Shown piece by piece: positions 7,542-61,600 of a DNA stretch of 64,000 nucleotides. The notes under the pieces were generated by a model that was given only the letters and a program-made list of their open reading frames with translations, did no database searches and was not told the origin of the DNA. Every line of letters begins with the position of its first letter. Position 1 is the first letter of the stretch. A program made the position numbers and the translations under genes. The stretch lies in contig BDIU01000130.1 of the NCBI GenBank assembly GCA_002118135.1, positions 1 through 64,000 of the forward strand. Direction: 5' to 3'. The DNA is from Trebouxia sp. TZW2008. Lineage: Eukaryota; Chlorophyta; Trebouxiophyceae; Trebouxiales; Trebouxiaceae.

Positions 7542-10500
7542 TCAGGGTGCAGGCGTAGGACATCTCATTGCCCTTTGAGAGCTGTGTGTGGATACCTGCT
7601 GTGCCTGCCTGGCATGTAGGACTGCCTGTACTGCTGCTTGCATCAACTCCTGCAGCTGCTGATGATTGGCTAAGCTCGCTTCAGCTGCATGCGCTCTCTG
7701 CTGCTCTGTTGCAAGCTTCTGCCTCAACAAAGCCAGCTGCAATGGCAAAACAACATTTTTTCAGTACATTTCGGATCCTTGCTTGCTTTGTCTGACTCAG
7801 CATATGCCACACCTCAGTTTGTCACTGCAGTGTAGCTGACAGAAAGTAGCAAAACGCTCAACACATACAAGATCTGCCATGCTACAGCTTTGATGGCAGC
7901 AGAAAGTGCCGTCGTCCGCTGATGCGCTTGCTGTTACAGGCCGGCTTACCAAGGTCTCAAGCATTGATTAGCTCCCAGCAGCAGGGTATGTGGCATCACC
8001 TGAGGCAGTTGTCTAGCAAAAACTTTCTCTGGACTCTGCCTCTTATGGGAGACGTTCTTGGACGCTGCACTCCTCCTGCTGTCAGCATTGCCAGTGTCTT
8101 GTCCTGATGTGCTTGGGCCCTCTGGGTTGCCTGTTTTGACAGGGCCCTTTTGCTCACTTGGCGCGGCCCCATGAGGGCTGTCTGGCGCATCCTGATTAGG
8201 CCCTGAGTAGATCCGCTTGAGTGCAGTGGTCTCTCTCTGCATGGTCTCATACCAGCCTGCCAACTCTGCTTCTGCTGCTGCTAAGTCTTCCTGCATCATA
8301 TAGTGCCTGCGTTTGTGGCTTTGCTGATGTTCGTGATCAAGGAGGGAGTCAGAAAAACGGAGAGGGAAGTGCACATTGTTGAAACGGCTTGGGAAGGTTG
8401 GTATGGCGCATGGCATGTTTCTCTGCACACACCAGTTATGTGCAGAGAACATCCTGTCCAGCATGCTACGGGGGTTGTGCACAAGCCTTGCTTTGCCAGG
8501 CTGAAACTGCTATGTGGTTTGGCACTCTCAGCTTGAGCAGATGGTTCTCCCTTTTCAAAGGTGCCCTACCTCAGCAGATGTTGTGCCCGTTTTTGCTTCA
8601 GCTGATGGGCCTCCTCCAGAGATGCTGCCTCAGCATAGAAAACATTGCCACTGCAGGTTTGCTCTGAGTCAACTTCATCTCACACTGGATGCCAGTGCTG
8701 GCCACAGTCCTACCCGGAGCAGATGACCTGATCTCATACTGCAAGATATCATGATGTTCCTTTTTGCCAGCATCTACTGTTTCACCTTGGGCAAACGGTT
8801 TTCCCTTTCCAAGACAGCACTCTGCTTGAGCGGGTGCTGTGCCCGACCCTGCTCCAGCTGATGGGTCCCCTTCAGAGACCCTGCCCACATGTAGTCAACT
8901 TATCCTTGTTCAAATGGTTAAGGCTGCGACCTATATTGTACCTTCAGCAGATGGTTTTCCCTTTTCAAGGCAGCGCCCTGCTTGAGCAGGTGCTGTGCTT
9001 GGCCTTGCTCCAGCTGATGGGCCTCCTTGAGGGAAGCTACCTCCGCAGCCGCCTCTCTGTGCAGCCGCTCAAACTGCCCTGCTGCTGCCCTCATGGCCTC
9101 CAATTCCTCCCTCAAAGCTGAGCTGCGCTGCTTGTATACCTCATCTTCCTGCACAAGGCAAATCCAGATTTCAAAACAAGCTGTGCAAAGGTTAGAGTCT
9201 GTTTGCAAAAGGTGTAACCAATTTGCACAGCAAGATGTGCAAAGTGTGTAATTCCATGACTGTTGGCTGCCCTTGCAACTTCTAATTTCTCCTTGAGCAC
9301 TTGGCTGCGCTGTTTGTACAACTCACCCTCCTGCAGTAGGAGAATCCAGCTTGCATACCAAGGCGCTGGGCTGCATGCTCCAACCCATTGTTCTCTGTAA
9401 GTCATGGTTGACTACACATCTCAGGCTCCTGCATGGCTGTCACAGCCAGACCAGCTCGGAACAGGGACCAATGCATTGCTGACTTTGCAACAAGAGTCTG
9501 CATTGCTGATTGCTGCTTTTGAAACTGCAGGCGTAGGCTGCTACTGCTGCAGAGGCTGCGTACAGAATGCCTGACAGCAGCTACTTGTCTTGTGATGTGT
9601 GTCAAGCTTGGTGGTCCTATGAGCTGCCATGTGCCAACAAGGCGTGAACTACACCAGTGTGAAGGCAATATTGTGAGTTGAATGATCAAGCTGTGTCGGT
9701 GACCAGGGAAGAGCTGCAATGTGCTTCTCTAGGTTTTCACCTGCCGCTGCACATCTCGTCTTGTGTGTAGTGATCAAGCTCGATTGCCCTATCAGCAGGT
9801 AGGATCTGCAATGTGCTCGTCAGATCTCTAATGTGCCACTGCAATTGGAGTCTTGAGTTCAACAGTCAAGCTGTGTTGTCCTATCAGGGGCAGCTCCTAT
9901 CAGGGGGATCTGAAAGGTGCTGCTCAGCCTGTCTGACATGTCATAATAAGTCCATCAAGCTGCACAGCCAAAGTGCCTTGACCCTGGCAGCTCGTTCAAC
10001 AGGTGGCTGCTGCATTCCTACATCCTGCCCAAATCCCTTCTGGTTCAGACCACCATGCTATGATCTGTTGCACATCATGCTGGAGGCTCAGGCTGCCACA
10101 AATGGCTGTCTGCACAGATAATGTGAGCTGCACAGCTGCTGATAGAAAGACATGATGTTGGACCAGCCTAAGATCTGGTGCACATGCTGCTGGAGGCTCA
10201 AGCTGTCATGCATGTGGCTGTCTGCACAATCAGTGACCTGCAAGGCTGTCACCAGAAGGCATTCTGTATGGAGTCAAGTGACACAGGCCCTGTTCTGGTC
10301 TGCAGCTTCATCAAATCTCAACATGACTGCAGATGGTATGCGCCGCCATCTAAAAGTATGTGAGACACATGCCTGAGCTGCCCAGGCTGCAATGCTGACG
10401 GTGCAGATGCTGTGCCTCTGCATGCAAAAGCTGCTCACACAAGCTGCCAAACACTGTTTGATGGGTCTGTGTACTGCTCTTCTGATGGTTTTGTGAGTGA

Positions 10501-13500
10501 GATGCCTGAGCTGCCTAGGCTGCACTGCTGATGATGCAGGTGCAGTGTCTGTCCATGCAAACGCTGCCCACACAAGCTGCTAAACATTGTTTGCTGGCTC
10601 CATTTGCAGCTCTTCTGATATTTTCGTGAGAGAGATGCCTGAGCTGCCCAAGCTGCACTACTGACAATGCAGAGGCACAGCATCTGCATGCAAAAGCTGC
10701 CCAGACAAGCTGCCACACACTGTTTGCTGGCCCTGTTCACTGCTCCTGTTCTAGCTGTGGTAAACTCTGTTTGCTGGCCATGTTTGCTGCTCCTCTTGCA
10801 ACTGTGAAGGGCATGTGCATGTTCCTGAATGTCTGCAGTCACCTCATCATAAACCCTGCAACTCTGCACTGGTTTTAGGTACGGCTGTAGCTGCAGTCTG
10901 TGACCAGGCTTGTAGCTGCACTATTGCAACAGCACCTCTTTTGCTGCATTGTTTGCTGCTGCCTGGCTGCACCTCTGTGGCTCATGTGTTGCCCTTAAGC
11001 AACAGGACCCAATGACCAGCAGTACTTGCCATTTCATACATAGCTGACCAACCAAGCACCGCTAGCAACAGCAAGAGATTTGATGTTAGAGTCACCATCG
11101 GAATAGTCATGATTGCTGTCATGGCAGACCAAGCTTGCAGGTGAGTTGCTAGCCTTTCTTGAGCTGCACTTCTGAACGCCACACCAATCGCTCACAAGAG
11201 TTTTATAGCCGCTTTGCACTTTTGTAGCCAGACTATGAACTAGTTTTGTGCAGGTACTCTGGGCAGAGACAAAGTGTTGCCACATGTAGGACGACTGTAT
11301 GTTGCTCAATAAGGTTGATGTCAGGGCGCACTGCGAGCTGCTTGGTCTTGTCTGTGACTTTGAACACTCAAGAAGAAAATGTTGCTTCTCACATCTCTCA
11401 AACCAGATACCATCGCTAACAAGCGACTGACAGCATTGATGCCAGAGGTTCCCTTGCAGCTCTAGACACTCAACATAACAATTTCGCAGCTGCATGCTTG
11501 AGACCCTGGACATTTGATGCCAAATGGCAGTGCTGATGTCAGAGCTTACCGTGAGCTGCTTGGCCTTGTCTGTGACAATCTGCAGCTCCAGGGCGTTGAC
11601 CCGCGCCTTGATCTGCTTCAGGGTGAGCAGGTCCACTTTGTCAGTCTCCTGAGCGTGGCGCGCCATGGCTTCGTCAATGCCAGCCACCACCTCCTTGTGC
11701 AATGCCCTGCAACACAGTGCACAAGACTTAGGAAGAGAACAAACCGAAAGAAGAAAGGAAGCCTTCTGAGCACAGCGGGTCATCATCATCTGCAGCTCCA
11801 GGGTATTGGCCTGTGACTTGATCTGCTTCAAGATCACTTTGCCAGTCTCCCGAGCGTGACGTGCCATGGCTTCATCAATGCCAGCCACCACCTCTTTGTG
11901 TAGTGCCCTGTCAAAACAATGACACACATTAGGTGCTGCACTGCACGTTCAGCAAATGCAAAGACTCACATGTCTGCTACAGGGATTCAGGCCAACTGCC
12001 TGTGAAGCCATGTTGCCTTAGCTGCATCGTTGTGCATAAACAATCTTTTTTGCACGCAAAGCCGTGTAGACTGCTACCGTCTTTCCAAGCAAAATGCAAG
12101 CTTGTTGAGACTCTGTCAAAGCAATTTAGACCAGGTGTATCAGGCTTCCCAATACAACCAAGTCTCAGACCTGATGGTGTTGAGCTATTTGGCCTAACGC
12201 TGAGCAAGTGTCATCAGGCTTTACTGTAGAACAAACTCACAGCCATGATGGTAGTGAGCTGTTTGGCCAGGTCGACGCTAAAAATGATACGATCTGCCAT
12301 GTGCCATTCACATTAGGCTCTGACTTATGTATGCTGGCCGCCCAAAGCACCAAGACACGCGCTGATCTTGGGAAATGCAGGTATGATGATGAAGTGCTCA
12401 AGACCACAGACCTGATGGTGTTGAGCTGTTTGGCTTGGCCCTCAGCAGCGTCCTGGGCGGCCTTGTGGCTGGTCTCCCCTTTGAGCTGGGTGAGCTGCTG
12501 CTGCAGGCGCGCCACCTGCCCCTCCCACTTCACCTCTCGCCGCATGTATGACTCCTGCCGCCTCTGCATGTTGCACACATTGTTGAGCTGGCAGTGCATC
12601 AGCGTGTTGCACACATTGTTGAGCTGGCAGTGCATCAGCGTGTTGCACACAGAGTGCAGTTGCTTCTGCATGTACGACTTCTGACACCCCTTCAAAAGGC
12701 CTGCGCTGTGGAGCTGCTGCTGCAGGCGCGCCACCTGCCCCTCCCACTGCACCTCCCGCTGCATGTATGAACCTGCAGCCTCTACAGAGTGCACATAAAG
12801 CATGACAGGCAGTGTCACTGCATGCATAGCCCCTGCTGCTTCTGTGCATTGCTGTTGGCTGCTATTGTATGGGCCGCTACATGAAACACGGTGACAGGCA
12901 GCCCATCTTAGTTCACTTCACGTGACGTGTAAAACTCCTGCGCCTCTGCACATTGCTGTTGCTATTGCATGTATGATGCCTGTGGTCACTTCACCTCCCG
13001 CCGCATATATGACTCTGCACAGGGTATGCACAATGCAGTTGTTATTTCAGTCGACGAGTTATTTCAGATGGTCCTGGAGTAGGTACAATGTCATAGCTCT
13101 CTTGTCATGTCTCTTGCTCACAGTGACGATGCTACCGCAGTTGAGCATGTTGACTTCTGATTTTGCTGCGTGCATGACTTCTGATGTCTCTGCATTGGCA
13201 CATACAGCGTGACCAATGCAGCTGAAGATATTGACAGATGAGCACATGCAGTGCTGCTGCTGATGCCCGTGAGCTTGTTGACAGGTCACCCTCAAGAAGA
13301 AACAGTATTGTCGCTGATGCACATGAGCATGTTGACAGAAGATGAGGTGCCTAGCGGAAGTCAAGGACGATTGTCATGTGCACCTGGTGCCGCTCATGAC
13401 TGTCAGATTGCACATCACGCCAAGCAAATAAACCTCTATGCTGGCAATACTGGGAATACAAAAGCTAGGCTCATCTTCACGAAATGAGTGAAGTGGAACA

Positions 13501-14823: not shown

Positions 14824-17800
14824 ATGCAGTCCACCCTACTGCAGCGAAGCAGCCTTGCGGGCACCAGCCTTGTGAACAGGCACGCTCAGCAAACTCGTTC
14901 CGCTCAGGTCAGCAAAGTGTTTTCGCGCTCGGATGCATCATCGGCGGCACCGATGCCGTCGGCTACGCGCTGTACATCACAAAATCGTGATGAATGCGGG
15001 CGACAGCGCACAGCATGGAACCCGTCCTGCGCTGATCGGGCGATGACACGCTGTGATGAACGTGCAGACTTTCCAGGTCAACGCCAGGCTCGGCGGTACC
15101 CAGGGCAAGAAGGCACAGAAGACTATCAAGAAGACCGCCAGCAAGGTCGCTGGAGGAGCCAAGAAGACTCAGAAACAGGCAAAGTCGACCGTCAAGCAAA
15201 GCAAGAACAAGGCCGTCACAAAGTCTGGTGCAGGCAACTGGTACGGCCCTGACAGGCCAAAGTTTCTAGGTGCGCAAGTTCAAAATGAATCCAGCCTGGG
15301 AGCTGATCCTATGCTTTGTGCAGAGTACAGCTTTTTGCTCTTTGACTGAGCCTGAAAGCTTGATCTTACCACGCTCAGTTTGAACGTTGCAGGTCCCTTC
15401 ACACAGCCACCATCATACTTGAACGGTGAGTTTGCTGGCGACTACGGATGGGACACAGCTGGTCTGTCAGCAGACCCAACCACATTCGAGAAGTACAGGA
15501 ACATTGAGGTCATTCACGCCAGATGGGCCATGCTAGGAGCTCTTGGTAAGCTGCTTTACATGCACCTTTCCTGTGGCTGCCTTTGGCAGCTATAGTCTGC
15601 ATGCTTACACATGCCTTGCTGCATGCTGTGGTCATCATGCAAACACCCACCACCCTCCCTTCATCCCTGGTTTGCATGCAGACATTTCCTATCTTTGTCA
15701 CTCGTATGGGCTTGTGTGCTGACAGCAAAACACACACTTGAGGCAGATTTGCCCAATGTGTGCAGCAGCTTCAGCTGCACACGCCATTGAGCATGCAATG
15801 TTTGTCCTCGGCTTGTCCCATTCCTGTGAAGTTGCCATGCTTACCACATCTGCAAAGAGCAGCGGTCTCCTAAGTCACATGCAGCAGTTGGAGGGCATGG
15901 AACACATGCGTTGCTTTGACATGTGGTTTGATTGCTACAACTGTTGTAACGTAGGGTGCGTCGTGCCTGAGCTATTGGACGGCACAAACCATGTGCCATG
16001 GTTTGAGGCAGGTGCCACCATCTTCTCCAAGAACGGCATCCAGTACCTAGGCATTCCAGGACTCATCAATGCCAGGAGTATCTTGGCGACTCTGATCGTT
16101 CAGGTTCGTGCTTAGCTTCTTGCACTGCAATTTTTGCATGCAATGACTAGGTATCCCAGGACTCGTCAATGCCAGGCATCTTGGCGACACTGATTGTCCA
16201 GGTGTGTGCTTAGCGCCATACACATCACACAATTCCGTGCATTCATTGCCTGAGTATTCAGAGCTCGCCCATGCACTGCAATGGCTGCATCATAGAAGTC
16301 GCCATTTTCTCAAAGCAACCTTCAGTGCTTGGGCAGCCGTGCTGTACCTAGCATTCTGGCAACTCTGATTGTCCAGCTTTGCAGCTGCTTTTATGCATCA
16401 CTGCACATGCGGTGCACCCATCGCGGGCACTGCGGCCACTACATCAGAGAGGTTTTGGGCCGCTGTGCCTTGCAGAATTATGCAATGCAATCTGTGCAGC
16501 TGGCTTCAACACCTCAATCAAGGCATTACAGCCAGTTTGGCACTGCAACTGTTATGCCTGCCTGTATGCACCACAATCAGGGCATTACACAGGTCGTGAT
16601 TTGCTGTGCAGAACTGTGTTCAGCAACAAGTGCAGTTGGCTTCGCGCCATGCGATCAGTTCATGACAGAGGTTGTGATTTGCTGTGCAGAACAATGTACA
16701 GCAACGAGCGTGACTGTCGTTGTGCAATACGATCAATGCATGAGAGAGCACCTTGGACGCTGTGCACGACTCTGTGAGGCACTGTGTCCAGGAACTTTTT
16801 CTTGCTCTGATTGCATTGCAAAAGCCAGCCACACTTGTTACATTGCATTCCACAAGGTCTGCAGTAATCACTGCATCACTTTGAAAGCACAGCAAACCAG
16901 ACTACCTGTAAAGACCCTCAGCAACGCACTGCTTCTCCTCTCAGTGCTGCAGTGCGGCAAGTGAACCCGGTCTTTCCAGTGAAGCCCTAAGTTGTGCTGG
17001 TGTCCGTGAAGTTGATGAAACTGCTGTACGCTTCACATCTTAGCGCAGTTGTCTTGCGTGTGCGTCTCCTAACTTTTAACTTCAGCTGTAGCTGACCTTG
17101 CTTGAGCATTAGATTTATGCATGCCCCTCCAAAGCTCAGCCTGAAGCTGACATTGCGGGTGTTTGTTCGCATGCATGCATTTGGGGCTGACCCAAATTGA
17201 TCTTTAACGTGATGCATATCACCTTGAAAGCTCACACTGTGTCTTCAGGTTATCTTGATGGGAGATATTGAGGGTTACAGATTCCAGGGTGGAATCAAGG
17301 GTGACGAGGGCTTTGACCACTAAATGCATTTGGGGCTAACCCAGCTTTATGTCTAATGTCGTGCATATCACCTGAACTTTGAGCTCAACCTGACACACGG
17401 TGTGTTCAGGTCATCTTGATGGGAGCCATTGAGGGTTACAGATTCCAGGGTGGAATCAAGGGTGATGAGGGCTTTGACCGCCTATACCCAGGAGGAGACT
17501 ACTTCGACCCCCTCAGCTTGGCTGATGACCCAGACTCGTTCGCTGAGCTTAGAGTGAGTCTTCCTACACTTGTGTGTCAGGCTGTCACCTGCAACGCTAC
17601 CGGCAAGGGGGGGGGGGAAATGCCCCAGTTTTTTGACATGATTATGACGCACCCTTTGCAACATGCTCAGACGCTGACCCATCAGCTTGCTCATCAGCAA
17701 AAGACCCACTGCTGACTCTGCCTGAATTTCTTGGCATCAACATGCATCATGGCATTGGCATTGCTGGCAAGGACCTTCAACAACAATCTTTCAAGCACCT

Positions 17801-20522: not shown

Positions 20523-20554
<32 letters not shown>

Positions 20555-23500
20555 TTGAACGCACTGACTTGCAGCTTTAGCACAGCAGCAACAACAGAGC
20601 AGCAGCAGCACAGCAGCAGCATGAAATTTGCTGAGCAAAGGAGCACTGACCTGCACCATTCCTCAATGCGGCTAGCAACAGCTCTGAGCACTGCAACTGC
20701 CTTGTCTGGGTAGGCCCCAGCAGCAGATTCTCCCGACAGCATCAAGGCATCAGCCCTTTGGCGAACCACATCTGAGATGTCTGCTACTTCTGCCCTTGTG
20801 GGTGTGGGGTACTCGATCATGGACTGCAGCAGGTGTGATGCAACAATGACTGGCTTGCCCATCTGCCGACATCGCATCACAATCTCTTTCTGCACTGAAG
20901 GGACGTCCTCCAGAGGGATTTGTGCACCTGTATAGCAGCAGCAGGAATTGAGCAATTTACCACTGATAACATTTGTGTGAATGAAGTCATCAGCAGAATG
21001 ATCTCTTTGGGGACTGGAAAACGCCTTGTAAAGAAATCTGGGCACCTGTGCAGCAGCAGCAGCAGGTGTGCTGCAACAATGACAGGCTTGCCCATCTGCC
21101 GACATCGCATCACAATCTCTTGCTGCACTGAAGGGACGTCTTCTAGAGGAATCTGGGCGCCTGTGCAGAGTGAAGAAGACGTTTAGCACTTGACAGTCAA
21201 CAGTCCTCATGTAAATTCATGAAGTAATCAGCATCACGGTCTCTTGGGGTGCTCAATCATGGACTGCAGCAGGTGTGATGCGATGATGACTGGCTTGCCC
21301 ATCTGCCGACATTGCATCACAATCTCTTTCTGCACTGAGGGTATGTCTTCTACAGGAATCTGGGCACCTGTAGAAGGGGATGATTAGTTGACTGTTGACA
21401 GGGCTCATAGGAGTTACGGGAATGACAAGTGTCACGATCTCTTTCTGCACTGAAGGGATGACTTCTAGAGGGATTTGTGCACCTGTATAGCAGCAACAGC
21501 AGTTGAGCAATTTACCATTGCCAGGACTTGTGTAAATGCCATTATCAGCATCACAATCTCTTTCTGGATTTGAGGGAGGTCTTCTACAGAGATTTGGGCA
21601 CCTGTGCAGCAGCCAAGGAAATTAAATCAGTTGACATGCAACAGGCCTTCAAATTGACGAAGTGATCAGCATCAGAAGCTCGTTCTGGACTGAAGGGCCA
21701 TCTTCCAGAAGAATTTGGGCACCTGCACAGCAGCATGAGAAGTTGACACAGTTGATCATGCAGAGAGGTGAAGAGGAATGGTACCTACACCACATGCAAT
21801 CATGACGCCGTCTGAAGCCTCAATGATGTGCTGTGCATTGGGAACACTATCTTGACTCTCAACCTTGGTCACAGAAAATCTTGGCCACAATCTCAAGCAA
21901 CAAACACAAAAGTCTGACCTACCAAACATGTGGCAACAGTACAAGCTAGGCATGAAGAGGAACAGCACCTAGGTCACCACATGCAATCATGACGCTATCT
22001 GACGCTTCAATGATGTGCTGTGCATTGGGAACACTGTCATGGCATTCAATCTTGTAGACTGTCTCAAGCAGCAGGGTTCTGATAGTACGCACTACCAACT
22101 AGGTGGCAATAGTGCAAGCCACAAGTGAAGAGGACTAGTACCTAGGTCACCACGCGCAATCATGACGCCATCTGATGCTTCAATGATGTGCTGTGCATTG
22201 GGCACGCTGTCATGGCTCTCAATCTTGGCGACGATCTCAATGGTCTTGTCACTGCGTGAGCTGAGGTAGCTCTTGAGGTTGTTGATCACATCTGGAGTCT
22301 TGACAAACGAGACAGCAATGAAATCCACACTCATCTGTATGGCAAAATCGATGTCCAGCCAGTCCTGCATGAAAGTAAAACAGATTGAGTTTAGCAAAAC
22401 TGGACACAGCTTCTGCACTATTGGCATCAAATTCTGTAGTACAGTGGGCATCACTTGTACGTGCTTAGGAGCACTGAGACTACAGCTGGGTCTGTGCAGA
22501 GATGAACAGCAGCTTTGACACTTGTTTTGCATGCAGCAATTGCAAGAGCAAGCTTCAGCGGAGTGTACAGGGCGTGTTGCAAAAATGCTGCTGTACACAG
22601 TGCGCGAATGCTATACACATGCATGCTGACAGCAGCTCATACTGAAGGTGCCCTGACAAATGCAGTCCATGCCGCGTGCGGCTAGCTGCACGGTGGATGC
22701 AAAAGAAGAGTCAGTCAGTTCAGTCCGTCTCAGGACTGACTGAAGGCTGTTTGCATATGCCACTAGAATCTCTTGGCAATCATGTCATTCAGCCCACAAG
22801 TATTGAAAGCATGCGTCGCGTAGCTACTGCTGCAAGCCTGTCATTGCATGAAGACAAGTGCCTGGGCGAAAACACATGGCCTGAACATTGCAGCCAGTCT
22901 GCATCAGGACACAAAGGTCAAAGCTGCCTGAAGTATCTCGAAACCCTTTGGGCTGCTCAGACCTAGTGGTGCAGCTGCAGACTGACATGCTGCTGATGGT
23001 GTATGTGTGTGCATGCCTTGCATCAGCCTGGCTGCTGTATTTGTGACTGCATGATTGTATGCATGACTACGGTTGCGGTTCAGGAACACATTCACGTTGA
23101 GGTCAAGAAGGCGCAGCAATATCACAGTACAGTGATCTCTCTTTATAACAACTGCATTGGTTACCAAGAAAAATGTCATTACATCGAATCGTCCTGACTC
23201 AGTAACGCTGCAGTCAGAATGCAGTGCTTGGTTCCTAACTGCATTGTCCTTACACCCAGGATGTTCTTATAGCGAGTGTCCTTATGAAGCGAGTTTACTG
23301 TACCAGCTGGGTCACAACTGCAGCTCCTGGCTCAGAAGCAGCTTTGCTTGCTGCTACAGGCTGTAGCTGTTGTGCCTGAGCAAGCAGCATGATGAGGCAC
23401 AGCTCACTTGAGACCTGAAAGTCTAGATTGTGCTTGGGTTACAGTTTGACACCTGCTCGGCTTTGCACTGCAGGCCTGGGTGGGTCAGGCAGCTCACCTT

Positions 23501-43876: not shown

Positions 43877-46800
43877 CTATTTTGAAGCTGTGACACTGAG
43901 GCTGCTGATGACAGGTGCCCAGAGAGCATTGCTGCGGGCTTGCATGCCACGGGATATGACTTCTCTTGGCTTGTTCCTGCACATGAAAACATTTCTTGCT
44001 TTGCCCTGTCATGCCTAGCTAGCAGCCATATCAATTGTGCAAATGGGCACCCGAGAATTTGCACTGCCTTGCCTACAAACATTGGCCTTGACATGACACA
44101 GATCCTGTTCAGCTATGCACTTGAGCACAAAGCATGTGCTGCAGCTCATGGATATAGGTGGATGATTGAATGCATGTGTAGTGGCAGTTCTGACCTGTGC
44201 ATGTTGGCATCATGTGGGGTCCTTGCAGCTTGCCGCAGCCAGGCAATGGCATCCCGCAGGGTCTTCCTGCGGTTGCTGTCTCTAACAGCCTCCAAGCGGC
44301 GCAGGTGACCTGCCTCAATCAGGTCACGCTTCAGCTGAGCCTCTGCCTTCTGAGCAGCTTCTGCTTGCAGCCGCTCCTGTATACGCGTGCAGATGTCACT
44401 TGACAAGTTCATTGGAAAAGGAAATTTTACATCACATGAGGAAGATGACATGCATGCAGGGAAAGTAGATATTTTGCCCTGCTAGGTCAAGCTGCTGCAG
44501 CTCACAGAGGGGCCCATCATAATGCATGGCAGCAGTGAGTTTTTTTCCCTTGATTCCTGTAGTTGCTTGTGCCCTGCCGTGCAACTTCAGCTGGTGGTAT
44601 GACATGCCGGGCGGGAGTCAGCTGCTGCTGTTCTGACTTGAGTGCAACAAGTGCATGAGCTTGATCCAAGTCTGCTTTCGTTTGCAGAGCAGTGCTCAAA
44701 CAGACGCACTGAGCCAGATATGATACGACAAATACAAGTTGTATACCTGACAGTTCGGTCAATCAGGCATGCACCGTAATCTGAGGAATAGATGAAAAAG
44801 AAGCCTAACCCTCTTGATGTTGAGTTGAGAGTAGCCAACTGATGTAATGAGCTTCTCAACCATAAATGGCAGACTCACCTCAGCTAGACGTTGATACCAT
44901 GCTTGAGCTCTGAGGGTCATCTGAGTCTTCCACACATTGTAGTAGTACAGCACCAAATGCTCTGTTTCCCGCTGCGGCAGGAACTGCTTCCTGATGGCGG
45001 GAAAATCCCGCCCAAACAGCAGCATTCCCTCCTCAAACTGCTCCTCTTCCTCATGCGTCCAGCCTTCAGCAACTGCGGCGCCAATGAGGGGCAGGCCTAG
45101 GGGCTTGTGGGCCGCCCGGGGCAGGGCATTATGCAGTGCTACCTGCCCTTCCACTGACCATTGCACCCTGCATGGTTGCCAACCTTGTTGTCAGGCTGCA
45201 CCAAATCACTTAAAATTGTAACAGTTGCATTCTGCTCACAAGCAAGGATATGTGCATGAGTATACATGCATATAGATGCCAGTGTGTGATTACAAGTACA
45301 TCGCAAATGGTGACGAAATGAGTTTGTGGCATGTTTTGTATACCAACACCGCAGATGCAATGAATGCGGAAATTTTTATAGTCATGCACTTCAGATGAAC
45401 TGTAATGCTTAAGCAACAACAGCAACAATGCATCCTCTCAAAAGCTGCTGACACTGTTTCTTGCTGTGCCTTGAGCATCTCAAGGCATCAGAAACGAATG
45501 CACCATGTTTGATCATATTTATACTTGAACCTACCATGCTGCAGTACAGCTTCCCTAATGCAGGAGCATGCTTTGCACAGACGCAAGTCCAGCTGCTGCA
45601 GAACAAAGCTCAGTCTGCATCGTACGACACAGCAACAAGTGTGTGGCAAGATGGGATTTCCACAGCTCAGAAGAAGCTCGTTACCTTTGCTGAAGCGTGG
45701 CGCCATCAGGCAAAGGTGGGGGGTGACAAATTCTAGCCTGGCTGTTTGCAGCACCTGCAGAACAAGCAGAGCATGAAATTGAGTTGCAACAGGTACAGAA
45801 GCTGTGCTTGACTACTCTTGTGCACACCAAGAGACTGCTTGCAGTGATTTGGAGTTTATTTAGCCCAAGACATCAAACAGCAGACAGCAAACATTGTTTG
45901 AGGCACAGCCAAGGAAGCAAGGACTAGCTAGGAGTTCTGGCCTCGCATTGCTAAGTATGCTGTATGGAGTTGGGATGCCATGTATGCCATGTTGACGGCA
46001 TACAGGACCATTGGAGTAGAGTTAGAAGACATGACTGAAGTGATAAGCTATAATGCATACAAGGCATAGTATCATATTGTGCATTGGCTCTATTACCAAG
46101 ACAAGTGCAATGAGTGCTGTGGCAACAACATGATCTGATTTGATGGCCACACACTATGCGATAGAATCACAGCCTGGCCAGTGAACATGTCTGACAAGGG
46201 CTGCTATTGCCAATGTGTAACCACTGTGGTCACCAGCATTGCATGGATTGCTTCAGGCACACCAGACAAAGCTGTCAAGCATGCAAACCATGCATGCAGA
46301 CACATCACATGCAGCACAGTCACAGACACGCTGCAAGTTGTACGCCTTTCTGTAATCAACACAGGGCAGCTCAAAACTTTACCAATCCCAAGAGAGTATT
46401 TCCAGACAGCTTCCTTGCGATCATACCAGAGGCAGCATTCAGCTGATTGACCGTACGCTGATGCTGGTAGCTGACCGGTTGTAACAATTGTAGCAATTGT
46501 GATTGGCATGTAGTTGCTCATCTTGTCTACCTGTGACAATGCGGGGCTGCATCCAACGCTGCTCATCAGCCGGTGTGTTTGGCAAATTTTCGTAACCGTC
46601 AGCAGCCAAGCTGAACAGCTATAATGATTGAATGGATGCTGTATAGCAATTACATTCTGAGGCTTGTATAGTCACCTAGTGGCATTGGGGCTGCATTCAG
46701 CTGACTGCTCCTGTCCCCATCAGCTAGAACTGTGTTCACTTGATTGACAGTCATACCTGTGACAATGGGGGGCTGCATCCAACGCTGCTCATCAGAAGGC

Positions 46801-49800
46801 ATTCTGAAGGGGCGAGGCAGGACAGGAGGCATCTGGGCCTGATACTCGCCCCCCTCCCGAGTCTCCTCAACCTCACTCTCCTCGCTGCTCAGCTGTCCCT
46901 GCTCCGAAACCACCCAAGCTGGTCTGTACACTTCAGGTGCAGCCCTTGCTCTTGTGCTGCGCCGCACCACTGCGAGCAGCACACATGCTCTTGAGGACGG
47001 AAGTTTTGGGTCATATACAACTCCTTTTGGTCCACAGGTGTTGAGGCACTTGAATTGGTCTGTCAGAGGTTTTGGGTCATGATGCTGTGTTGCACGTGTC
47101 ACCAGCTTGACATCAGCATGCTTTGTGACAAAATTGACCCGGCTCACTTTGTCACCAATGTCACAACATGGTGAATCAAAGCCCTGTAACAGGCACGACA
47201 CAAGAAATTATGGTTGAATCAAGCTTAAGCGCGACCTTGTGCTGTGCTTGTTTATATGGTCTCATGATCAGGTTTAGCTGACCAGATACTAAGCCCAGCA
47301 CTTGATGAGACATGGGCATGGCCTGACAAAGACCCAATGCAGCAACAGGCAGCAGAAAGCCCTCAATGCCAACAGCAGCTTAGTATCTTGACATATACAG
47401 CACAACAGTAACTAAGGACTGGACTGACTGACATGCAAGGAGGTCTTCACCATCACAAGTGCGTGTGAGTACTGGAACAAATGTCAGACCAACAAGGTGC
47501 TTACCAGCAGCTGGCGAATCCTCCACAAAGTCTGTTGCAGTGTCCTCAAACATGACAACCCGCAGCTGTGATAAGATGTGCATGAGCAGTTGAGGTCTGA
47601 GAAGAGTGACAAAATGACAAGATCCTTACCAGCAACAGGCAACTTCTCTAGCAGGTCTGTTGCGATGACCTCAAACAGGACACTCGAACGGCTGTGATAG
47701 CATGTCCATGAGCACTTGAGGACTGAGAAGCATGACAGAGCGACATGGCAGCAAGCAGATTTTCCAGCAAGTCTGTTGCAGCATCCTCAAACATGATACT
47801 GCCCAGTCTGATCAGCACAAATGCTTTCATGACAAAGCAACAGGCAAGGAGGCCTACCAGCAGCAGGCAGATCCTCCATAAAGTCTGTTGCGACGTCCTC
47901 AAACATGACGCCCCGCAGCTGTGACAGCATGACCATAAGCATTAAAGCACGGAGATGAAGGACAAAGCGACATGCAAGGAGGCTCACCAGCAGCAGGCAG
48001 ATCCTCCATAAAGTCTGTTGCAACATCCTCAAACATGACGCCCCGCAGCTGTGACAGCATGTCCATGAACAAGAACTCCTGCTGAGGGCTCAACCCAGTC
48101 TGCACAGGCAGAGAACTTCCGTCTGGCTCAGCTGCCAGCACAGTTGCAGCCACAGATGAAGCTGGTGGGGCAGTTGATGCAGCTGTCACAGCAGATGCTG
48201 CTGACATGGTTGCTGTTGATGATAATCTGGTTGGTGGTAATTGCTGTGGTTGCTCTCTTTGCCTCAGCCCTGCATTTAGCTCCACGCTGGACGACCCTGG
48301 CTGACTTTGCTGAAGAATAGTTCCCACGTCTCTTGAGGCAGCACCCAACTGCCCTTGATCCTGCATGTCTCGGTCAGGCAGTTGAGCCGGCACAGACCAA
48401 TGGGTATTGCGCTCAAGCTGGTGCTCAGCGTTATCTGCCTGCTGGGCACTCAGAGTTTGAGCTGCATGCTGGGCCTGCTGCGCCTGCTGAGCATGCTGCT
48501 CAATCAAAATAGGCCGCTGTGCCCCAAGCACACCTGTGTCAGCCTGCTGAGCCTGCTGGGCGCGCTGTTCTCTTAAATCTGGCTGCTGATCCTTATGCTG
48601 ATCTATGCAAGTCTGCTGAGTATCATGCCCAGCTGCAGGCGAGTGCTGTGAGTGAGGCTCGTCCATGATGCGCTGCTTCTTATGTTTACGATGCCGGCCA
48701 GACCTTCTGGAACTGTACCTGGCGGGGGCATCATTGGCGGCGGGGCAAGCTGCGGTCAGCCGCAGCCACCGCACCATTGCACTCATCTTGGTGTCTCCCT
48801 GCATGTCACAGATGTTTTCAGTGCCAGACATTAACGTTGTTAGGGAGCTCTTTGAAAGCATTGCAGGATATGCAGCAGACAGAGGGCTGCTGTGTACGGC
48901 AGTCGAAATGCCATCAATTGTTTAAGCTTGACGCTATAATGGTGCTGGGGAAGAAAGAATTGCATGTTCTGACAGGATACAGAGGCACTGAAACAATGCC
49001 TGTGATGGCATGAGGTGTAACACGATCCCTTGCTATGCACAGTAGCGACAGGTCACAGCTTGACACCTTGAGCACAGCTTGATGCAGAATCGTGCCAAAG
49101 ATGCTTCAGCGAAAACGAATCACAAAATGTAGCCCAGAACCCCACGACACGCTGGGTGTGTCAGAACTTAACAAGTAGAAGCAGCCTGTAAAGTGTGCTG
49201 AAAAAATATACAACAAGCAGTGCTGACCTGTGCAACCAGATTGAAGCCTGCACGCCTCCAGTCAGCACTGCTGGTTGCTCTGGTGACTGCTGGCAGGCCA
49301 AGGGGGGCTGGGGAGGGGCGCACATACCCCACCCCCCCTATGGTTTCCCAAGCAAGCTCTGCAGGTGAGGTTGCCTGCATCATCAAACTGTGCTGACAAT
49401 GGAGCTTAGGGAGAACAATCGGCTAGTCATTGTGCTCACTGGTACACTGAACATTACTCATAATGACACTGGATATACTAGTATATATTTTCCACAGGGA
49501 TGCTTCCAGTCTTTGTAATAACATTCATTGGAGAGCATGCAGACTGCAACAGACGGCAGTCAGCAATACATTGATCATTTACCAGTGAGTGCCTGTTGAC
49601 AACAGCTTTACAAAAGAGGTCTCAATAGCTGTGCATGGTCTGACTGTTGCTCAGGCAACACAGGCGTGTCAGGAGACCCAAAGACAATTTCACTGCCATC
49701 ACAGTGAGCTAGCAGTGTTTGAGTTTGGCCCTGAGCTGTGAAGAGAAACATGGCCGTGTGCCCTGTTGCCTAGGAGAAAGAGCGATGCACTATGCCTTGT

Positions 49801-52800
49801 AAGTGCTGTAGACAACTATGCATGCTGTGCTGCAGCAAAGAATCCAGCAGGAATTCATACCTCTGTGCATGATCATGGATGCTGCGGGAACTGCACAGAC
49901 TGTACCGTAAAGCCTAAAGCATCTGCTAGACCTCTGACAGTATCACAGCAATGTTACAGGGGGTGGGAATGCGCTGTATGGGAAGATGCAAATCAAGACA
50001 AAAAGCAATAGCACCAAAGCTTTTTACTCACTCTGTGAGCCTCTGCCTGAAACCCAGACAGGATAGGGTCTGGAAGCAAAGCACCATGAGGGATGACTCC
50101 AGATGCCAAGCCCCTACCCCTACCCCTGCCTCGACCCCTGCCACGGCCCCTACCCCTCCCCCTACCCCTGCCCCGCCCCCTGCCTCTACCCCTCGTCCCA
50201 GCAGAGGCTTCAGAGCCAGCTTCTTCAGACGCAGCAGACCCTTCATCAGCTTCTTCTTCTTCTGACTCCAGAATTCTGCTGCTGCCGCCACCACTGGACG
50301 CCTCTTGCTCTTCTTCTGCTTCAGAGCGCGACTTAGAACTGGCCTCAGATGCTGACTGGGAACTGCCCCTGCCGGTGGCCCTGCCCCTGCCGCGACCCCT
50401 GCCCCTGCCTCTTCCCCTTCCTCTGCTTCTTCCTCTTGATGGAGCAGAAGAAGGGGCCCTGCCCCTGCCCCTGCCCCTCCCACTGCCAGGGGGTCTGCCT
50501 CTTTTTCTTGGGGGTGCCACCTCAGCTCCTGCCCCTGTGACTAGGGCACCTCCAGAGGCAGCCCCTGTTGGGAGGGCTGCATCAGGTCCAGCCCCTGCTG
50601 ATGGAACAGACTCAGCAGCTGGAAGCTGAGTCTCATTTACTTGCTGAGCTGCTGCCTGTGTGTTTTGTGGGAGCTGGGGTACTTGAGGGATGGCAATGGG
50701 TTGAGTTGGGCTGGCAGCATGTCTATGCAATGCTGATTCTGATGTAACTGGATTGACCTGCACGCCAAGCTCCTGTTGCATTATGTAACTCTGAACAAGC
50801 GCAGTGCTGATGCACTAACAAGATGTGTGAGCTTTGATGCATTTCACCATACATGTGGCAAGCGCAACATGTGTATCGACATGAAAGCAAGCATTGTCAA
50901 CAGGTGATGTGTCTGAAGTGACTTCTGTACAAGCTGAATTGAGACAAAATGCACAGCATCGTTTGAGGCATGAAACCAAACTGGAATGGCATTCAATGCT
51001 GTAAAGCCAGCCACAAAAGCTATCTTGGTATGTCAAGATTATCTGCCAGCTGTGCTGATAGAACCTGGCCAATTTCACTGCTTCATCAGAATTTGTCAAA
51101 ACAGAGCAGGGAGCAGAGGTCAATGACTGAGGGTTGCATGAGGACCAACTCAGAAAGGAGAGATCTGAAGACTCTGGTTTGCCAGCTCTGCAGACAAGAC
51201 AGGCATCAAATGAGGGTTGCATGAGGAGCAATGAGAGGTTTAAAGACCTGAAGACTCTGATTTGCCAGATCAGCGAGATCTTGAGGGTCACAGTACCCAG
51301 AAGCAGCAGCTGCCTCAGTAGCTGCCGCCACAAGCTTCTCAGGAGCCATACCATCCACAGAAACCGGGAAGGCCAAAGGGCTGGTCCCCGCATGTCCGTT
51401 ACGTTGCCCACTTGCCCTGCGCTGAGTCACCACACCCATAAGCTTGGGCTGCTGCAGCTGCTGGGGCAACTGCTGCTGCCTTTGCTGCTGTCGCTGCTGC
51501 CTTGACTGCTGCTGCAGCTGCTGCTGCAACTGCAGTGCAGAAGAGCCTTGATACAGCCTTGAGGGTGTTTGAACAACTGCAGGACTTGCTTGCAGGGGCT
51601 GGTAGCCGCCCTGTTGCGGCACTGCCCCAAGCGGAACTGCCCCAACAGGCACATCACTGCGCATCATGAGCTGCGGCTGCTGCTGCTGGTGCTGCTGCTG
51701 CTGCTGATGAATGTGTTGCTGGTGTTGCGTGTGCTGCTGCTGTTGCATGTGCTGCTGCTGCTGCTGATGAAGCTGCTGCTGCTGCTGCTGAGGGATGTGT
51801 GACCATGATTGCTGCTGTTGAGGCTGCTGCCAGTTCTGCTGTATGGCAGGTTGGGCCTGGGGCAGTGTCAAGCCAGTGACAGGTTTGACTGCTTTCTGTT
51901 GCTGGTTCACAACCTCAGATGAAGGACTGCGAGCACGCTTTGGCCTGCCACGACCTGTCTGAGACTCGACCGCCTGATTGCCTGTAGAACCCCCCTGCTT
52001 TGCGCCATTTGCCAGCTGTGAAGCATCGGGCATCACAGCCTGTACATGCCCTGACTGCCCAATTGTAGCCCCAGCCGCTGGCATGGTGCCAGGCTGAGCA
52101 GCTTGTGACCTAGGCGCAGGGTGTGATAGCGCTCGGTACGCTGCTGCTTGCTTCATCAGTGACTGGTCAAAGTCCATGAGCTTAGTCCTGTAGAGTGACT
52201 CAATTTGTGCAGCTGGATCTTGTCGCCAGGCTGGGCATTGCAGCAATGAACTGGCTATCAGGTTCCAGGGGAAGACACTGAGGGTTGGCTGCGCTGAGTG
52301 GCATTCATGCACTAAGCGCCACAGCTGATACAGCCGAACAGATCTGCCCTCGCACCAGGTCTCCAAAGCTGGCAACTGTCCTTTAGCAGACACAGCAAGA
52401 CTATAGTCAGCTGCACACGCCCAGTAAAGGTTGCAATGCTTGGTGAGTTACATCAACATGCAGAGATTGAATTATGCATAAATACAGCTGAACAGATTTG
52501 CCTTCACAACAGGTCTCCAAAGCTGGCAACTGTCCTGTAGCAAATATCTGAAGGCTACAGTGATTGTGCCCTAAAAGAAACGTTTGATGCAAGCACATTC
52601 CCAATGTAGGACAGCGCAATTGAAAACCATCACTGCATTTTGACTGCAGAAATGTCTTTGAGTGAGGACAGTTCTTTGTGAGGACAATCTTCTGGTTGAC
52701 CAACGCATTCGTTCTAAAGATGAAACGCTGTGTAATCAGCTGCGCATGTGCAGTGAAAGTTGCAATGCTTAGTGAGCTGTGCCACCATGCAGAGATCGAA

Positions 52801-55653: not shown

Positions 55654-58600
55654 ATGTTAGGGATGGCAGACACACGTGGTCGCCAGGCTCCTCACGGAGC
55701 TGCCAACACCACGACCACACGCGCTCCAGGCCGCCTAAGCAAAGCAGGCAGCTTGATTAACCCAGAGGTGCGGATTTGCTGAAGCGCGTAGCGCCTCTGG
55801 TTTCACCGCTATCCACTGACCGCTTTGCAATTGACTGATATGCTGTGTTGCTGATTTGCTGCCATGTTCACCAGAATGATCAAGACTGTCTTCTGCTTTG
55901 CAGACCGCTGCAGAAGTACAGCCGATGTACCGTAAAGGCTCTGGTCTAGCCTCTTTGGCAAAGCACCTTATGCATGCACAGCGTCTGCATAGTCCTGACG
56001 GCCGCAAATCTGATGGGAGCCCTCGAGGAGCTAATCAAAACGCCAGGCCAACCAGTGCTTCATCAAGGCAAGCTTATGCTTTTGCTGATGCTCTGTTTAC
56101 ATCTGCACCATGCATATGTTCTGTCTGTATGTGATATAAGGGCTTGTGACTTGTGCATACATGCAGTAGCAAAAGTGGTCCCGGTAGCTTCTGCTGCGGT
56201 GATGCTGTTGTATCATGCTGGCAAGAGTGAATGCTGTGAGCATGGCATCAAGCAAGACGCAGTCGATTAAAACTGTGAGATTAGCATGCTGGCATTAGTA
56301 GGCATGCAGACTGTGCTGGAAAATTCAATTGTCTACCTTGTGTAACCCAGCATTCCCCAACTTGTTGCTGCACATCGGGCAGATGCATTTGCCACAGGCG
56401 TCAGAGTCTGTGCAAATGTGATTTGCCATGCCTATTCGACTTCGCATCTGCCCTTCACTTTGGTATCAGCAAAACATGCATGGAATGATGACAAAAGCCT
56501 CGCAGCTTGCAGCACTTCAGCAGGCAAAGCCTGATGCCAGTTCAGCTTTAAGGATCAAAAAATCAACAGAAGCAGATGCAGTGCTGCAACAGGGGTGGTG
56601 ATGGCTCATGAAATGGCGCGCCATGTGCGCTACAACACCAGGATCAACCTCCCTAGGATGCATTTGGATGATGATGTCAATGGGTCACAACAGCCATTCT
56701 CACTGATGCTGCAGATGGAGTGCTGCAACAAAAGTGGTGATGGCACATGAAGTGGCGCGCCATGTTCGTGTTTGCTAGCATTGTCATTGTGCTTGTTGAT
56801 GCTGCAGATGGAGTGCAGCAACAGGAGTGGTGATGGCACATGAAGTGGCGCGCCATGTTCGCTACAACACTCGGCTCAAAGCACTGCAGCGCACCCCTCA
56901 CCACCTGATCATCAGCCGCGTGCGGCTCTTGTTGCAGCGCTTGCATAGCGACGCACCCGCAGCGCCTGCACCTGTCAAGCTAGCAGATGATCAGGTAGGG
57001 CAGAACTCAGCAAGAGTGCATACCTCATCACCTTAGCATCAGTTGTGTGCCCCTCTTGTTGCAGCGCTTGCATAGCGACGCACCCACGGCGCCTGCACCT
57101 GTCAAGCTAGCAGATGATTGGATAGAGCAGAACTCAGCAAGAGGGCATACCTCATCACCTTAGCATCACTAGTGTTTGCCTCTTGTTGCAGCGCCTGCAT
57201 AGCGATGTCCCCACAGCGCCTGCACCTGTCTCGCCAGCAGATGGTCAGGTAAGGCAGACTTCAGTGAGATCACCATCTTGTTATCAACTGCGTGCGCCTC
57301 TTGTCACAGCGCTTGCATAGCAATGCACACACAGCACCTGTGCCTGCCAAGCCAGCAGACGATACAAGAGCACTCAATAAGAGGTCAGCTGTGCCTGCAA
57401 CAGAGGCCTTTCATTGCAACGCAATCCTCACCATTGCATCATCAGCCGTGTGTGCCTCTTGCTGCAGCGCCTGCACCTCCCAGGGCAGCAGCCAATCAGA
57501 TAGGGCAGGAGTCAGTGAGAGGGCAGCTGTGCCTGTGATAAAGAATTTTCATTAGAGGTGCAAGTACTTTTGTTGTAAAAGCAAGACCAAGACCATATCT
57601 TGCCCAAGATGATATGTCTGGGCAAGAAAATGTCTGCAGACATAAAGCAAAGCTGGATTCAATGCGTGTGGCTAGGATTGAGTCCCTTTCTGACACGAGT
57701 TTTAGTATTTATGCAAGTGCTTCAGGACCGTGGTGCATGGCAGCCAGGCACCTTTGGGAGTGAACCATTCTGAGTCTTGCATGTACATCAACAGGCAGAT
57801 GCTGTGTTGCATGCTGCTCATGAGATAGCAGCAGGACAACCATGAATGTGTTTGACAGACCAGCTTCCGAATGAGTTGTACATCAACTAGTGAGCAGTTC
57901 ACTTGGTGTGCTATTCTGCTGCTGCTACAGGAGTTTGAGGTGCCTGCATGGCTCAGGACATCAGAGTTGTCTGGCCCTTTTCCCATGACTGCTCACAAGG
58001 AGGGGCAAGCCCTGCTATACTTCTGTTGCTGCTGCTCAACTACTGACTTCCTGGTTCTTGATTCTCTGGAGCTGAGTTTCTGGTGCTGATTTTCTGATGC
58101 TGCTACAGGAGTTTGAGGTGCCTGCGCTGCTCAGGACCTCCAAGCTGTCTATATTTCCCTTCTGACTGCTCACAAGGAGCAGCAAGACCAAATGCTTTGC
58201 TTCTGTTGCTGTTGTCCAAGGTTTGGTGTTCTGGTGCTGGTTTTTCGCTGCTGACGTCGTGTTGCTGCTACAGGAGTTTGAGGTGCCTGCGTGGCTCAGG
58301 ACTTCCAAGCCGTCTGGCTCTCCCCCCATGACTGCTCACAAGGAGGGCCAAGCCCAACTGGCCAAAATAGGCTCCTTGAAAAGGGTTGACAGCCTCAAGA
58401 GAAGCGACAGCCAGATTGACAGAAAGAGCAACACAGGCTCTGCTAGGTCAGACCTTGCTACCAAATCCTTTGTGTTCTGTATGCGTCGTACCACCATCTC
58501 TTTGGTTGTCCTCTTGGACATTCCACTGCATCATCAAAGTTTGTTCTGTGCATGGGGTTCAGCCAGGACCGAGCGCTTTCACGGTCACAAGCATTGCCTT

Positions 58601-61600
58601 GGCTAACAGCATATAACAAGCTTGTCGTCACAGCTTGCATGCTAGGAAGAGGAGACCCCCAGGAACACCTGCAAGACCTCGCTGTGGATGTAATCAACAC
58701 TTGACCAACCATGTCCCATCCTGCTGCTGATTTGGCATGGCTTGCTGTAGCCTGTCTCCTGCAATGGTTGAATTTTGTGCAGCGGATGAGCTGTCAGTCA
58801 ATCTCATGTTACTGTGCATGTCATCAGTGCTTGCAGCTATGCCCTTATGATTGCTGATGAAACACAATGTGTTGTTGCAGTCTATCTTCTGCCATGGACG
58901 AGTTCTCCATCGTGGATGAGCTGTCAGTCATCCTCATGTTTCTGAACCCCTTCCTGGCTAAGTTGCCTGATGAGGCAAGGGAAGGGCTTTGCCGGCGCAT
59001 GGCCCTGGAGAGCATCAACCGGGACCAGAGCATCTACAAGCAAGGGGAGGAGGTGCCTTGCTTCTTCCTCATACTGAGTGGTGAGATTTCCCTGCTTTGC
59101 ACATGTGTTTCAGTTACTATGCATGCCACATTGCTTCTAAATGAGCATAGGCATGCCTTTCTTGGTAAGAAAGCACATGTGTCGTGTAACCAGCACATCT
59201 GTATCATCATCACAGGTCAGCAATGCATGAGCTTCATGAGGGCATATGCATTCATGCAAAGTGTCAGCAGACAGGCAGATGGACGAGCAGGCAGCCAGAC
59301 AGGCAGGCAGGCAGGCAGGCAGACAGACAGACAGACACTTCAGCACTGGGCCACACAGTGCAGATGATGAAACATGGTTCAGCTGAAGGACATGCTGTCA
59401 CATGCGCTGCAGCATTGGGACAAAACAATTTGGAGGCAGTTCATTGCTTCTGTATGCACCTTCCTGGATCGTAGAAGCCCACTGGCATGTATTCAAATGA
59501 TCATGATGTTGACAACAGTGACGGGCTGCAGGTCAGCAAAGCTAATGAAATGGCTATGTCAACTTTTCGTTTTGCACAAAACTTTTCCATCCTATTGAGG
59601 AAACTCTTTGGTTGACATGCTTATGAATTTCACAGGAATTGTGGAGGTGTCGTCAAGGCGCATGGGTAACCGAAGCAAGGCCCTGGTGAAGAAGGGGCAG
59701 TGCCTGGGGGAGCGGGCCATCCTTGAAGGGGAGCCTGCAGCTGAGTCCTGCTCAGCTGGCAGCCCTGTCATCGCCCTCACTGTCAAGAGGCATGGTTTCT
59801 CTTCCCTTGCTTGCTGTTGTCTAGATCTTCAATCGGCACAACCTTGTTGCCTGTATTGTCAGCACGCACAGGCTTGTTTTTCATACTTCTGTCAGCACCA
59901 TCATTGTTGACCCCACCCACCATCAATGTCCCTACTGCTATTGTGCACATGCTCAATGTCCTGACTGTCAATGCGTACAAGGTACACCCAATCACAGCAC
60001 CTTACGGCTTGCAAACATGTGCTACCTCACAGATGTCCCGCTGATGCATGCATGTACAGGCTGTTTGGCGAAGGTCATTCAGCCTGTGTTGTAATTATGT
60101 GCCAATGAATGCACTGTTTACAGGCATGATTTCTTGGGCATTCTGGAGCCATATATGATGGAGGAGAAGAAGGGGCTGGTGGACTTCCTGCGCAGTAATG
60201 TGGGCTGCTTCAAGGATCTGCCCCGGGGACATATCATCAACCTGGCCCAGCACATGCAGCAAGTATGTGCTCTGGCCCTCATAGAGATCGATTGTTTCAT
60301 TAATTCACTCTCAAATGTTAGACGCTGTTTTGAACCAACTGAAAGTGGACATGCAAGGCAGGTAAGTCCTTGTAGCTTATACAAGGCAGGCAACTCCTTG
60401 TAGCTTATAGGACTAAGGACTTGCCTGCCTTGCATAAGTGACAAGGACTTACCTGCGTTGCATGCGCTTGTGCTTTTTCAGTATGGGGTCATGTCACCGT
60501 GCAACTCTATCCTGAGACAGTTTAAGCTTCTGTTGCTGCACTGTGAGTCATTTGAGCTGCAACCGGGCTTGCAAGGCTCACTTGTTTGCAGATACACTCA
60601 AGAGTCATGCATGTCATTTGCCCATTGGCTTTCGACACAGATTGGGCATCTGTGTTGTACAACACAGCTCATCACCTTGCGTTGTTGCCTAGTCTCGTTG
60701 GGCGCAGAGCCTTGAGACATGCTGTGTGCTCTTGAGTGGAGCATGAGATGCAATGTGACTAACCTGTAAGCTCTGACCCAGTCTGTGAGTTGACTACAAA
60801 CATTGTGATGCTGCTGTAATCGCTCACCTGCCTTGTGAGGAATCAGGCCAATGTGTACCATGACTCTGCTGCAACAGCTCGCCCTACTTTATCCCACGCA
60901 AGTGTCTCCACATGCCATTGTTTGGAAAAGCAACAGGCTTTGAGCATCCTGCGACAGAACACATCCCAGCTGACGCTGATACTAGTTCAAACTGCTTCCT
61001 CATGTTTTCTGCCTCTACAGGTGGAGTACCCTGAAGGTGCTGAGTTTGATTCCAGCGATACCAACGTATATTTTGTGAAGGCGGGCCACTTGCAGCTGAG
61101 GGCGGCCGACAAGCAGCTGCAGGAGATGGAGAAGCACCAAACAGTGGCCCAGGCTGCTGTAGCTGTCCAAACCATGGCGGCCACTGGACCCCTTTCTAAG
61201 GTGACTACCCTCCATCCTGCTCCTGTTCCCAATGTATGCGCAACCCTCATCATATATTCAAGGAGGCAATTTCATTGTCATTCACACGCTCACTACTAAG
61301 GCTTGGTGGCTTTGCTGTGGGTGTGCACATCATGGCAGCCACAGGACACCTCGTCAGGGTGACTTCACACCACACCCTTTTGACGCCTTCAGCATCCAAC
61401 ATGTTTCAGGCACAGAACATGGCAGCCCTTGGGGGCTCTGTGTAAGGGGACTCTACCCAATTCCTGTCTGCAATCATGCACTCTACACCCAGTATGCTGA
61501 AGGCTTAAGTCTGCCTGACATGAGCTTGATTCAAGTATGAGAGACGAAGGTCTTCCTGCAGGTTGAGATTCACAATGGTCAGCTGATTGGCACACTGGGG

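Follow-up and report, generated by a model that had tools for sequence, protein, structure and literature searches.

Why should the edges of exons recur, copy after copy, inside the introns that adjoin them? The question is raised by a 64,000-nucleotide stretch of DNA from the green lichen alga Trebouxia sp. TZW2008 (contig BDIU01000130.1 of GenBank assembly GCA_002118135.1, positions 1 to 64,000 of the forward strand), here called the window. A preliminary description of it had reported that segments spanning an exon-intron border are repeated at more than a dozen junctions, and had proposed that introns grow by repeated local duplication across splice sites. In this study, we placed 17 such junctions and examined the same pattern elsewhere in the assembly, which comprises 68.5 Mb in 527 contigs (a size within the range of 63-74 Mb published for Trebouxia genomes, according to the accessible part of PMC11523091). 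The pattern most likely reflects small tandem duplication that is frequent, is not targeted and is filtered by selection on the protein.

Comparison of the window with itself gave 50 similar pairs, 46 of which lie on the same strand and at most 795 bp apart; the remaining pairs are three distant ones on the same strand and one that is both inverted and distant. Copies were placed at nine acceptors (9148, 11706, 12563, 20927 and 52380 on the minus strand; 17410, 56808, 58274 and 58881 on the plus strand) and eight donors (8942, 11550, 12412, 22142 and 47988 on the minus strand; 16103, 56994 and 61200 on the plus strand), which confirms the reported observation. Homologous proteins back the genes of ten of these 17 junctions, encoding pyruvate kinase, a coiled-coil protein and an LHC protein, while the other seven rest on reading frames and a gene finder. 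On the intron-ward side, the side searched in the window, each junction has one to six copies when at least 15 exon bases are required per copy. The copies consist of the exon edge and flanking intron sequence, contiguous and in one orientation, inside the adjoining intron, and three arrays match their own locus only, among the scored matches in the whole assembly. From the flanking intron sequence, the preliminary description had concluded that they are not retroposed or shuffled exons. Introner elements are known by many dispersed copies, which the three arrays tested do not have. Given local arrays of contiguous exon and intron DNA in a single orientation, it is extremely unlikely that the copies stem from retroposed pieces or mobile introner-like elements; nothing beyond the repetition in introns itself was found to favour such an origin.

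The clearest case is intron 6 of the pyruvate kinase gene (1214 bp, minus strand), which lies between exon 6 (22142-22364) and exon 7 (20651-20927). It holds two copies of the donor 22142 border downstream of that donor (21953-22038 and 21768-21851) and six copies of the acceptor 20927 border upstream of that acceptor (20988-21062, 21091-21164, 21298-21372, 21432-21507, 21537-21613 and 21669-21746). Both exons were set by spliced alignment of P0121, a 594-residue protein encoded on a 1,911-bp contig. P0121 and the product of the spliced window gene agree in all 594 residues, and since the gene has a genomic span of 6,216 bp, the contig must derive from a spliced transcript or else from a processed copy of one. 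Its source label, 'lgn', is taken by inference to denote an assembly of read archives. When prokaryote genomes were searched for stray algal contigs, none was found. In the alignment, the outermost sites, donor 22142 and acceptor 20927, are joined, and the two donor and six acceptor copies between them are skipped. Local repeats are detectable across 100% of this intron, the only one of the 23 introns in the three homology-supported window genes to consist wholly of repeats.

In the coiled-coil gene (minus strand), three annotated orthologues from other Trebouxia, which are gene predictions and not RNA, align to the outermost borders; one of the three sets a donor at 8931 rather than 8942, a shift of 11 bp. 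Acceptor 12563, of an exon (12563-12412) set by the orthologues, has a strong copy at 12713-12795 and weak ones at 12901-12956, 12987-13015 and 13153-13202, and the donor of the same exon, 12412, is followed by two copies (12166-12267). Single copies lie upstream of acceptors 11706 (11838-11926) and 9148 (9266-9355) and downstream of donor 11550 (11316-11358), and two lie downstream of donor 8942 (8784-8855 and 8532-8597). KEV.GID, the one motif found in the coiled-coil orthologues, is present once in each of the three. Within 11550-11940 and 12412-12876 on the minus strand, acceptor copies lie in frames that are open into the real exon; a longer in-frame exon is conceivable, and the orthologue alignments do not use it. 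The proposed use of the outermost sites is thus supported by the transcript-like contig in the pyruvate kinase gene and by orthologue alignments in the coiled-coil gene. In both genes, one intron spans the copies and none has been added, so that these are not cases of intron gain.

The LHC protein of the window shows 89% identity to that of Trebouxia sp. C0006 and 88% to that of C0009. In its gene (plus strand), the exon that ends at 16103 has its donor border copied at 16136-16223 and, more weakly (score 17), at about 16349-16395, and a copy of the acceptor border lies upstream of acceptor 17410 (17233-17318). In a set of nine LHC genes whose borders were set by homology (7 of 16 LHC alignments, with scores below 480, were left out), copies at p<=0.005 were found at four of the 55 donors and six of the 55 acceptors, as against 0 and 1 of 55 in reversed controls and 1 and 1 of 46 on the wrong side. 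All 11 exon-intron matches in the nine genes were intron-ward and none was exon-to-exon; five of the nine genes have border copies. Paralogues differ at the same intron position: in three of them, one intron measures 976 bp with strong donor copies, 354 bp without copies and 314 bp with a single 62-bp acceptor copy, and at a second position an intron of 454 bp with an acceptor copy is matched by introns of 371, 399 and 301 bp.

The duplications are not limited to this locus. Twenty 10-kb chunks at spaced, non-random positions on six long contigs served as a comparison sample, and the scan for local pairs covered 260 kb, comprising 60 kb of the window and 200 kb elsewhere. It yielded 162 direct and 2 inverted local pairs. 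A diagonal scan of the 260 kb resolved 166 independent loci, 142 of which have units of 40-260 bp; the chance control, in which the sequence was compared with its own unreversed complement, gave 0 matches and the real sequence 311. The pairs, being on the same strand, local and adjacent, fit local tandem duplication. Among 87 nearest pairs, the aligned length was at least 0.8 of the spacing in 53% and less than 0.4 in 18%, and some of these pairs may be spaced or decayed rather than head to tail. A sharp spacing of about 150 bp in a BLAST-based histogram, and with it the idea of a link to nucleosomes, was dropped when the diagonal scan showed a broader range that includes shorter units. Local direct pairs were present in 16 of the 20 chunks, on six contigs, and four chunks had none; local direct duplications make up 13.0% of the 60 kb examined here versus 11.1% of the 200 kb elsewhere, so that the window is not peculiar. 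The middle 90% of pairs have identities of 63-88%, too low for a duplicated assembly. Given also the spread over chunks and LHC genes, and with no point in its favour, an assembly artefact has a negligible probability.

Borders outside the window were predicted by a rough self-trained gene finder in chunks that were not read by eye. A first version, which over-predicted exons and took copies for exons, was replaced. At eight LHC loci, which had also supplied borders for its splice matrices, the one in use recovers 35 of the 50 donors and 38 of the 50 acceptors; because single predicted borders are unreliable, only tallies were used. With at least 15 exon bases per copy, 27 of the 218 predicted acceptors and 22 of the 205 predicted donors had an intron-ward copy (49 of 423 borders in total), as compared with 1 and 1 in the reversed controls and with 4 of 199 acceptors and 3 of 186 donors on the wrong side, a test applied to this sample and the LHC genes. 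When the exon-base condition was lifted, 31 acceptors and 24 donors had a copy. An excess of intron-ward exon fragments beyond the window, which the preliminary description had suggested looking for, is therefore present in the sample.

Does the process act on junctions as such, as had been supposed? The places in which the 166 duplications fall do not support this: predicted exons make up at most a tenth of 67 of them, 16 are inside exons, 72 pair exon with intron and 11 are mixed. The unit length is a multiple of three in 14 of 16 duplications within exons, 19 of 72 exon-intron pairs and 20 of 67 duplications outside exons, a pattern that is as expected if border copies stay out of the protein. 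The divergence of the copies points in the same direction. When 29 copies of borders backed by homology were compared with their exons, codon positions 1, 2 and 3 showed 61/491, 56/493 and 125/486 mismatches (12.4%, 11.4% and 25.7%), and in the sample, with predicted frames, they amounted to 16.7%, 15.8% and 22.6%. The mismatch rate at third positions is 2.2-fold that at first and second positions in the supported genes and 1.4-fold in the sample; a ratio near twofold is expected of a silent copy beside a constrained exon, and a coding copy would give much more. A frame-shifting gap occurs in 10 of the 29 alignments. The copies that overlap exon edges apparently remain in introns as spliced-out debris.

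These results are consistent with the following course of events. The nuclear genome often undergoes small tandem duplication, mostly in the units of 40-260 bp observed above and apparently anywhere. Out-of-frame duplications inside exons are removed by selection on the protein, as the in-frame lengths of nearly all that are found there show. A duplication over a splice border is tolerated: when the outermost sites are spliced to each other, as seen for one gene in the transcript-like contig, the extra copy is lost, and its length need then not be a multiple of three. Repeated rounds would lengthen some introns and leave decaying border copies in them. Judging from published mechanisms, the molecular step is likely to be the filling-in of staggered breaks with subsequent end joining, or else a similar route of repair synthesis.

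Several observations weigh against this reading. Exon-intron pairs number 72, as against 43.9 expected at random placement (standard deviation 5.8), a 1.6-fold excess that none of 500 shifts reached, and each of the three identity classes shows the excess, even the youngest (21 versus 14.2, P 0.02). In the LHC genes, a tally of eight border loci versus two intron-only loci, obtained by a judgement-based merge of 11 exon-intron and 8 intron-only separate matches, exceeds the uniform expectation of 37% (p 0.007). Both would follow if duplication were targeted to exon-intron borders, for example through paired nicks arising via transcription, R-loops or exon-bound nucleosomes. The 67 loci outside exons and the 16 within them speak against such targeting, and unit lengths at border and non-exon loci show no clear difference (p 0.07). 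Furthermore, three effects that involve no target raise the border count, namely the loss of events within exons, units about half as long as an intron and the slower decay of the exon half. By a rough measure, mismatch on the exon side is lower than the third-position rate by a factor of about 1.6 for the supported genes and 1.2 for the sample, which can give much of the excess; the slower decay is close to the excess in size, which is not proof that it explains it, and mild targeting is possible. The junction preference would then be only apparent, and geometry (a typical unit being about half an intron) and slower exon decay may account for the whole of it. The invariant intron-ward order of the copies holds as described but says nothing on the matter, since tandem duplication itself forces it: after duplication across a donor, the additional copy can only lie downstream of the complete exon, and after duplication across an acceptor only upstream. 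Targeting to borders is, in our judgement, rather unlikely, and we are equally doubtful that the duplication process of Trebouxia is biased to splice borders, with transcribed exon edges as mutational hotspots that build introns.

Some copies look better preserved than silent copies should. In the first set, made up of the window and the LHC loci, the junction AG is intact in 23 of 23 acceptor copies versus 82 of 122 other AGs (67%), a count in which one acceptor was scored at 12554 instead of 12563, so that the base assessed in its copies was not the right one. In a few copies, nearly all differences from the exon are at third positions: the pyruvate kinase donor copies (21768-22038, minus strand) have 11/45 mismatches there and 3/92 at other positions, and the LHC donor copy (16136-16223, plus strand) has 9/22 and 2/44. 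Small numbers are the only explanation that we can offer for this strong bias in single donor copies, and it would fit a spell of coding use. Taken together with the two coiled-coil acceptor copies that are in frame and open into the real exon, these features would suit copies that act as alternative or recursive splice sites, or are sometimes coding, and are kept by selection. However, the retention of AG was not replicated in the independent sample (29/36 versus 167/229, or 73%; p 0.42), and the donor GT was kept no more than background in either set (13/18 versus 40/53 in the first; 21/29 versus 67/105, or 64%, in the sample, p 0.51), so that AG retention as a sign of function is unproven. 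The pooled codon-position ratio fits neutral copies, about a third of the alignments contain the frame-shifting gaps mentioned above, and the copies are skipped by the transcript-like contig and by three orthologue alignments. Selection for a function of the copies is accordingly improbable.

The relation to intron length is also uneven. In the three homology-supported window genes, 6 of 23 introns have copies of their own borders, and these comprise 6 of the 7 introns above 600 bp and 0 of the 16 introns up to 485 bp. Intron 5 of the pyruvate kinase gene, at 1133 bp, lacks border copies, and in the nine LHC genes, which share one intron with the window set, copies (p<=0.005) occur in 5 of the 11 introns above 500 bp and in 3 of the 45 that are shorter. 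Apart from the intron that is entirely repeat, detectable repeats account for no more than 15-33% of the five other window introns with copies and for 0% of the remaining seventeen, and the suggestion that introns are built of border copies as a rule cannot be upheld. Border copies are one source of intron length, but only pyruvate kinase intron 6 owes its entire length to them; the rest must come from older, unreadable copies or from other sources. Of the proposed intron growth by repeated duplication across splice sites, the gain in length and the use of the outermost sites stand, while a process acting on junctions as such does not. Frequent, untargeted tandem duplication under protein selection remains the explanation that we favour.

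The other seven junctions of the window show similar copies. In gene models based on frame only, donor 47988 (minus strand) has four downstream copies (47831-47936, 47748-47796, 47625-47714 and 47499-47588), the putative acceptor 52380 (minus strand) has one upstream copy (52482-52561) and the donor at about 61200 (plus strand) has one downstream copy (61312-61372). In models based on frame and gene finder only, all on the plus strand, two copies lie upstream of acceptor 56808 (56572-56768), two upstream of acceptor 58274 (57917-58179) and one upstream of acceptor 58881 (58722-58815), while donor 56994 is followed by four (57067-57525), the units 56940-57066 and 57067-57193 standing exactly head to tail with 91% identity.

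Smaller repeat loci outside the list of borders lie at about 32.7-33.2, 39.9-40.3, 41.6-42.2 and 46.5-46.8 kb. About eight 54-bp tandem units at 41607-42155 are possibly a coding minisatellite. A 42-bp stretch at 46528-46569 recurs at 46754-46795 with 97.6% identity and a step of 226 bp, no further similarity being reported, and resembles a templated insertion, not a head-to-tail duplication. Related stretches at 3779-4044, 23130-23300 and 52591-52731, far apart and in both orientations, are perhaps an old mobile element, and the contig starts, from base 1, with 30 TG dinucleotides (1-60).

Intron lengthening is usually blurred by transposons or age, whereas the Trebouxia copies are still readable and come with a frame control of their own, so that one route of intron growth can be seen with unusual clarity. 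Because such copies occur at 49 of 423 predicted borders, growth rates, the tolerance of decoy sites and the use of outermost sites should be measurable across Trebouxia strains. Ab initio gene models may mistake border copies for exons. In the literature searched, which comprised few subscription papers and was judged by title and the start of the abstract, no description in an alga was recognised, and the accessible parts of the Trebouxia genome papers PMC11523091 and PMC12712428 contain none.

Several known systems resemble this one in part. Duplication of mutually exclusive exons also produces tandem exon copies within a gene, but it needs whole exons with both sites intact, and the Trebouxia copies, being exon edges that are often broken or frame-shifted and are skipped by the transcript-like contig, do not belong to that class. 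In Drosophila, novel introns have arisen by tandem duplication of exons, with seven candidate introns; the likeness is that duplicated coding sequence turned into intron, and the difference that coding proto-splice sites were duplicated and the introns were new (PMC2891723, from the portion available). In the RdRp gene of potato, a tandem duplication crossing an intron-exon boundary carried the branch site, pyrimidine tract and AG, as described in the accessible text of PMC4974935. The crossing of the boundary is shared, but that single event gave a new intron and added exon sequence, whereas in Trebouxia repeated events lengthen existing introns of many genes, and splicing bypasses the copies in the one gene for which there is a transcript-like contig. 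In vertebrates, repair-mediated duplications are local, average 162 bp and sometimes include splice sites; as far as the available part of PMC2671141 goes, pairs within 50 bp were excluded as tandem and 4 of 824 donors were 'partial exon/intron', whereas 72 of 166 loci in Trebouxia are exon-intron and about half of the nearest pairs look head to tail. Direct small tandem duplications also arise when CST and Pol alpha-primase fill in staggered breaks whose overhangs are complementary (PMC8355091, accessible portion); that work concerns induced breaks in mouse and human cells, and direct tandem duplication is the feature shared with Trebouxia, in which the same pathway may operate. The kind of event is thus already known, and what is new in Trebouxia is its density and its repetition at splice borders.

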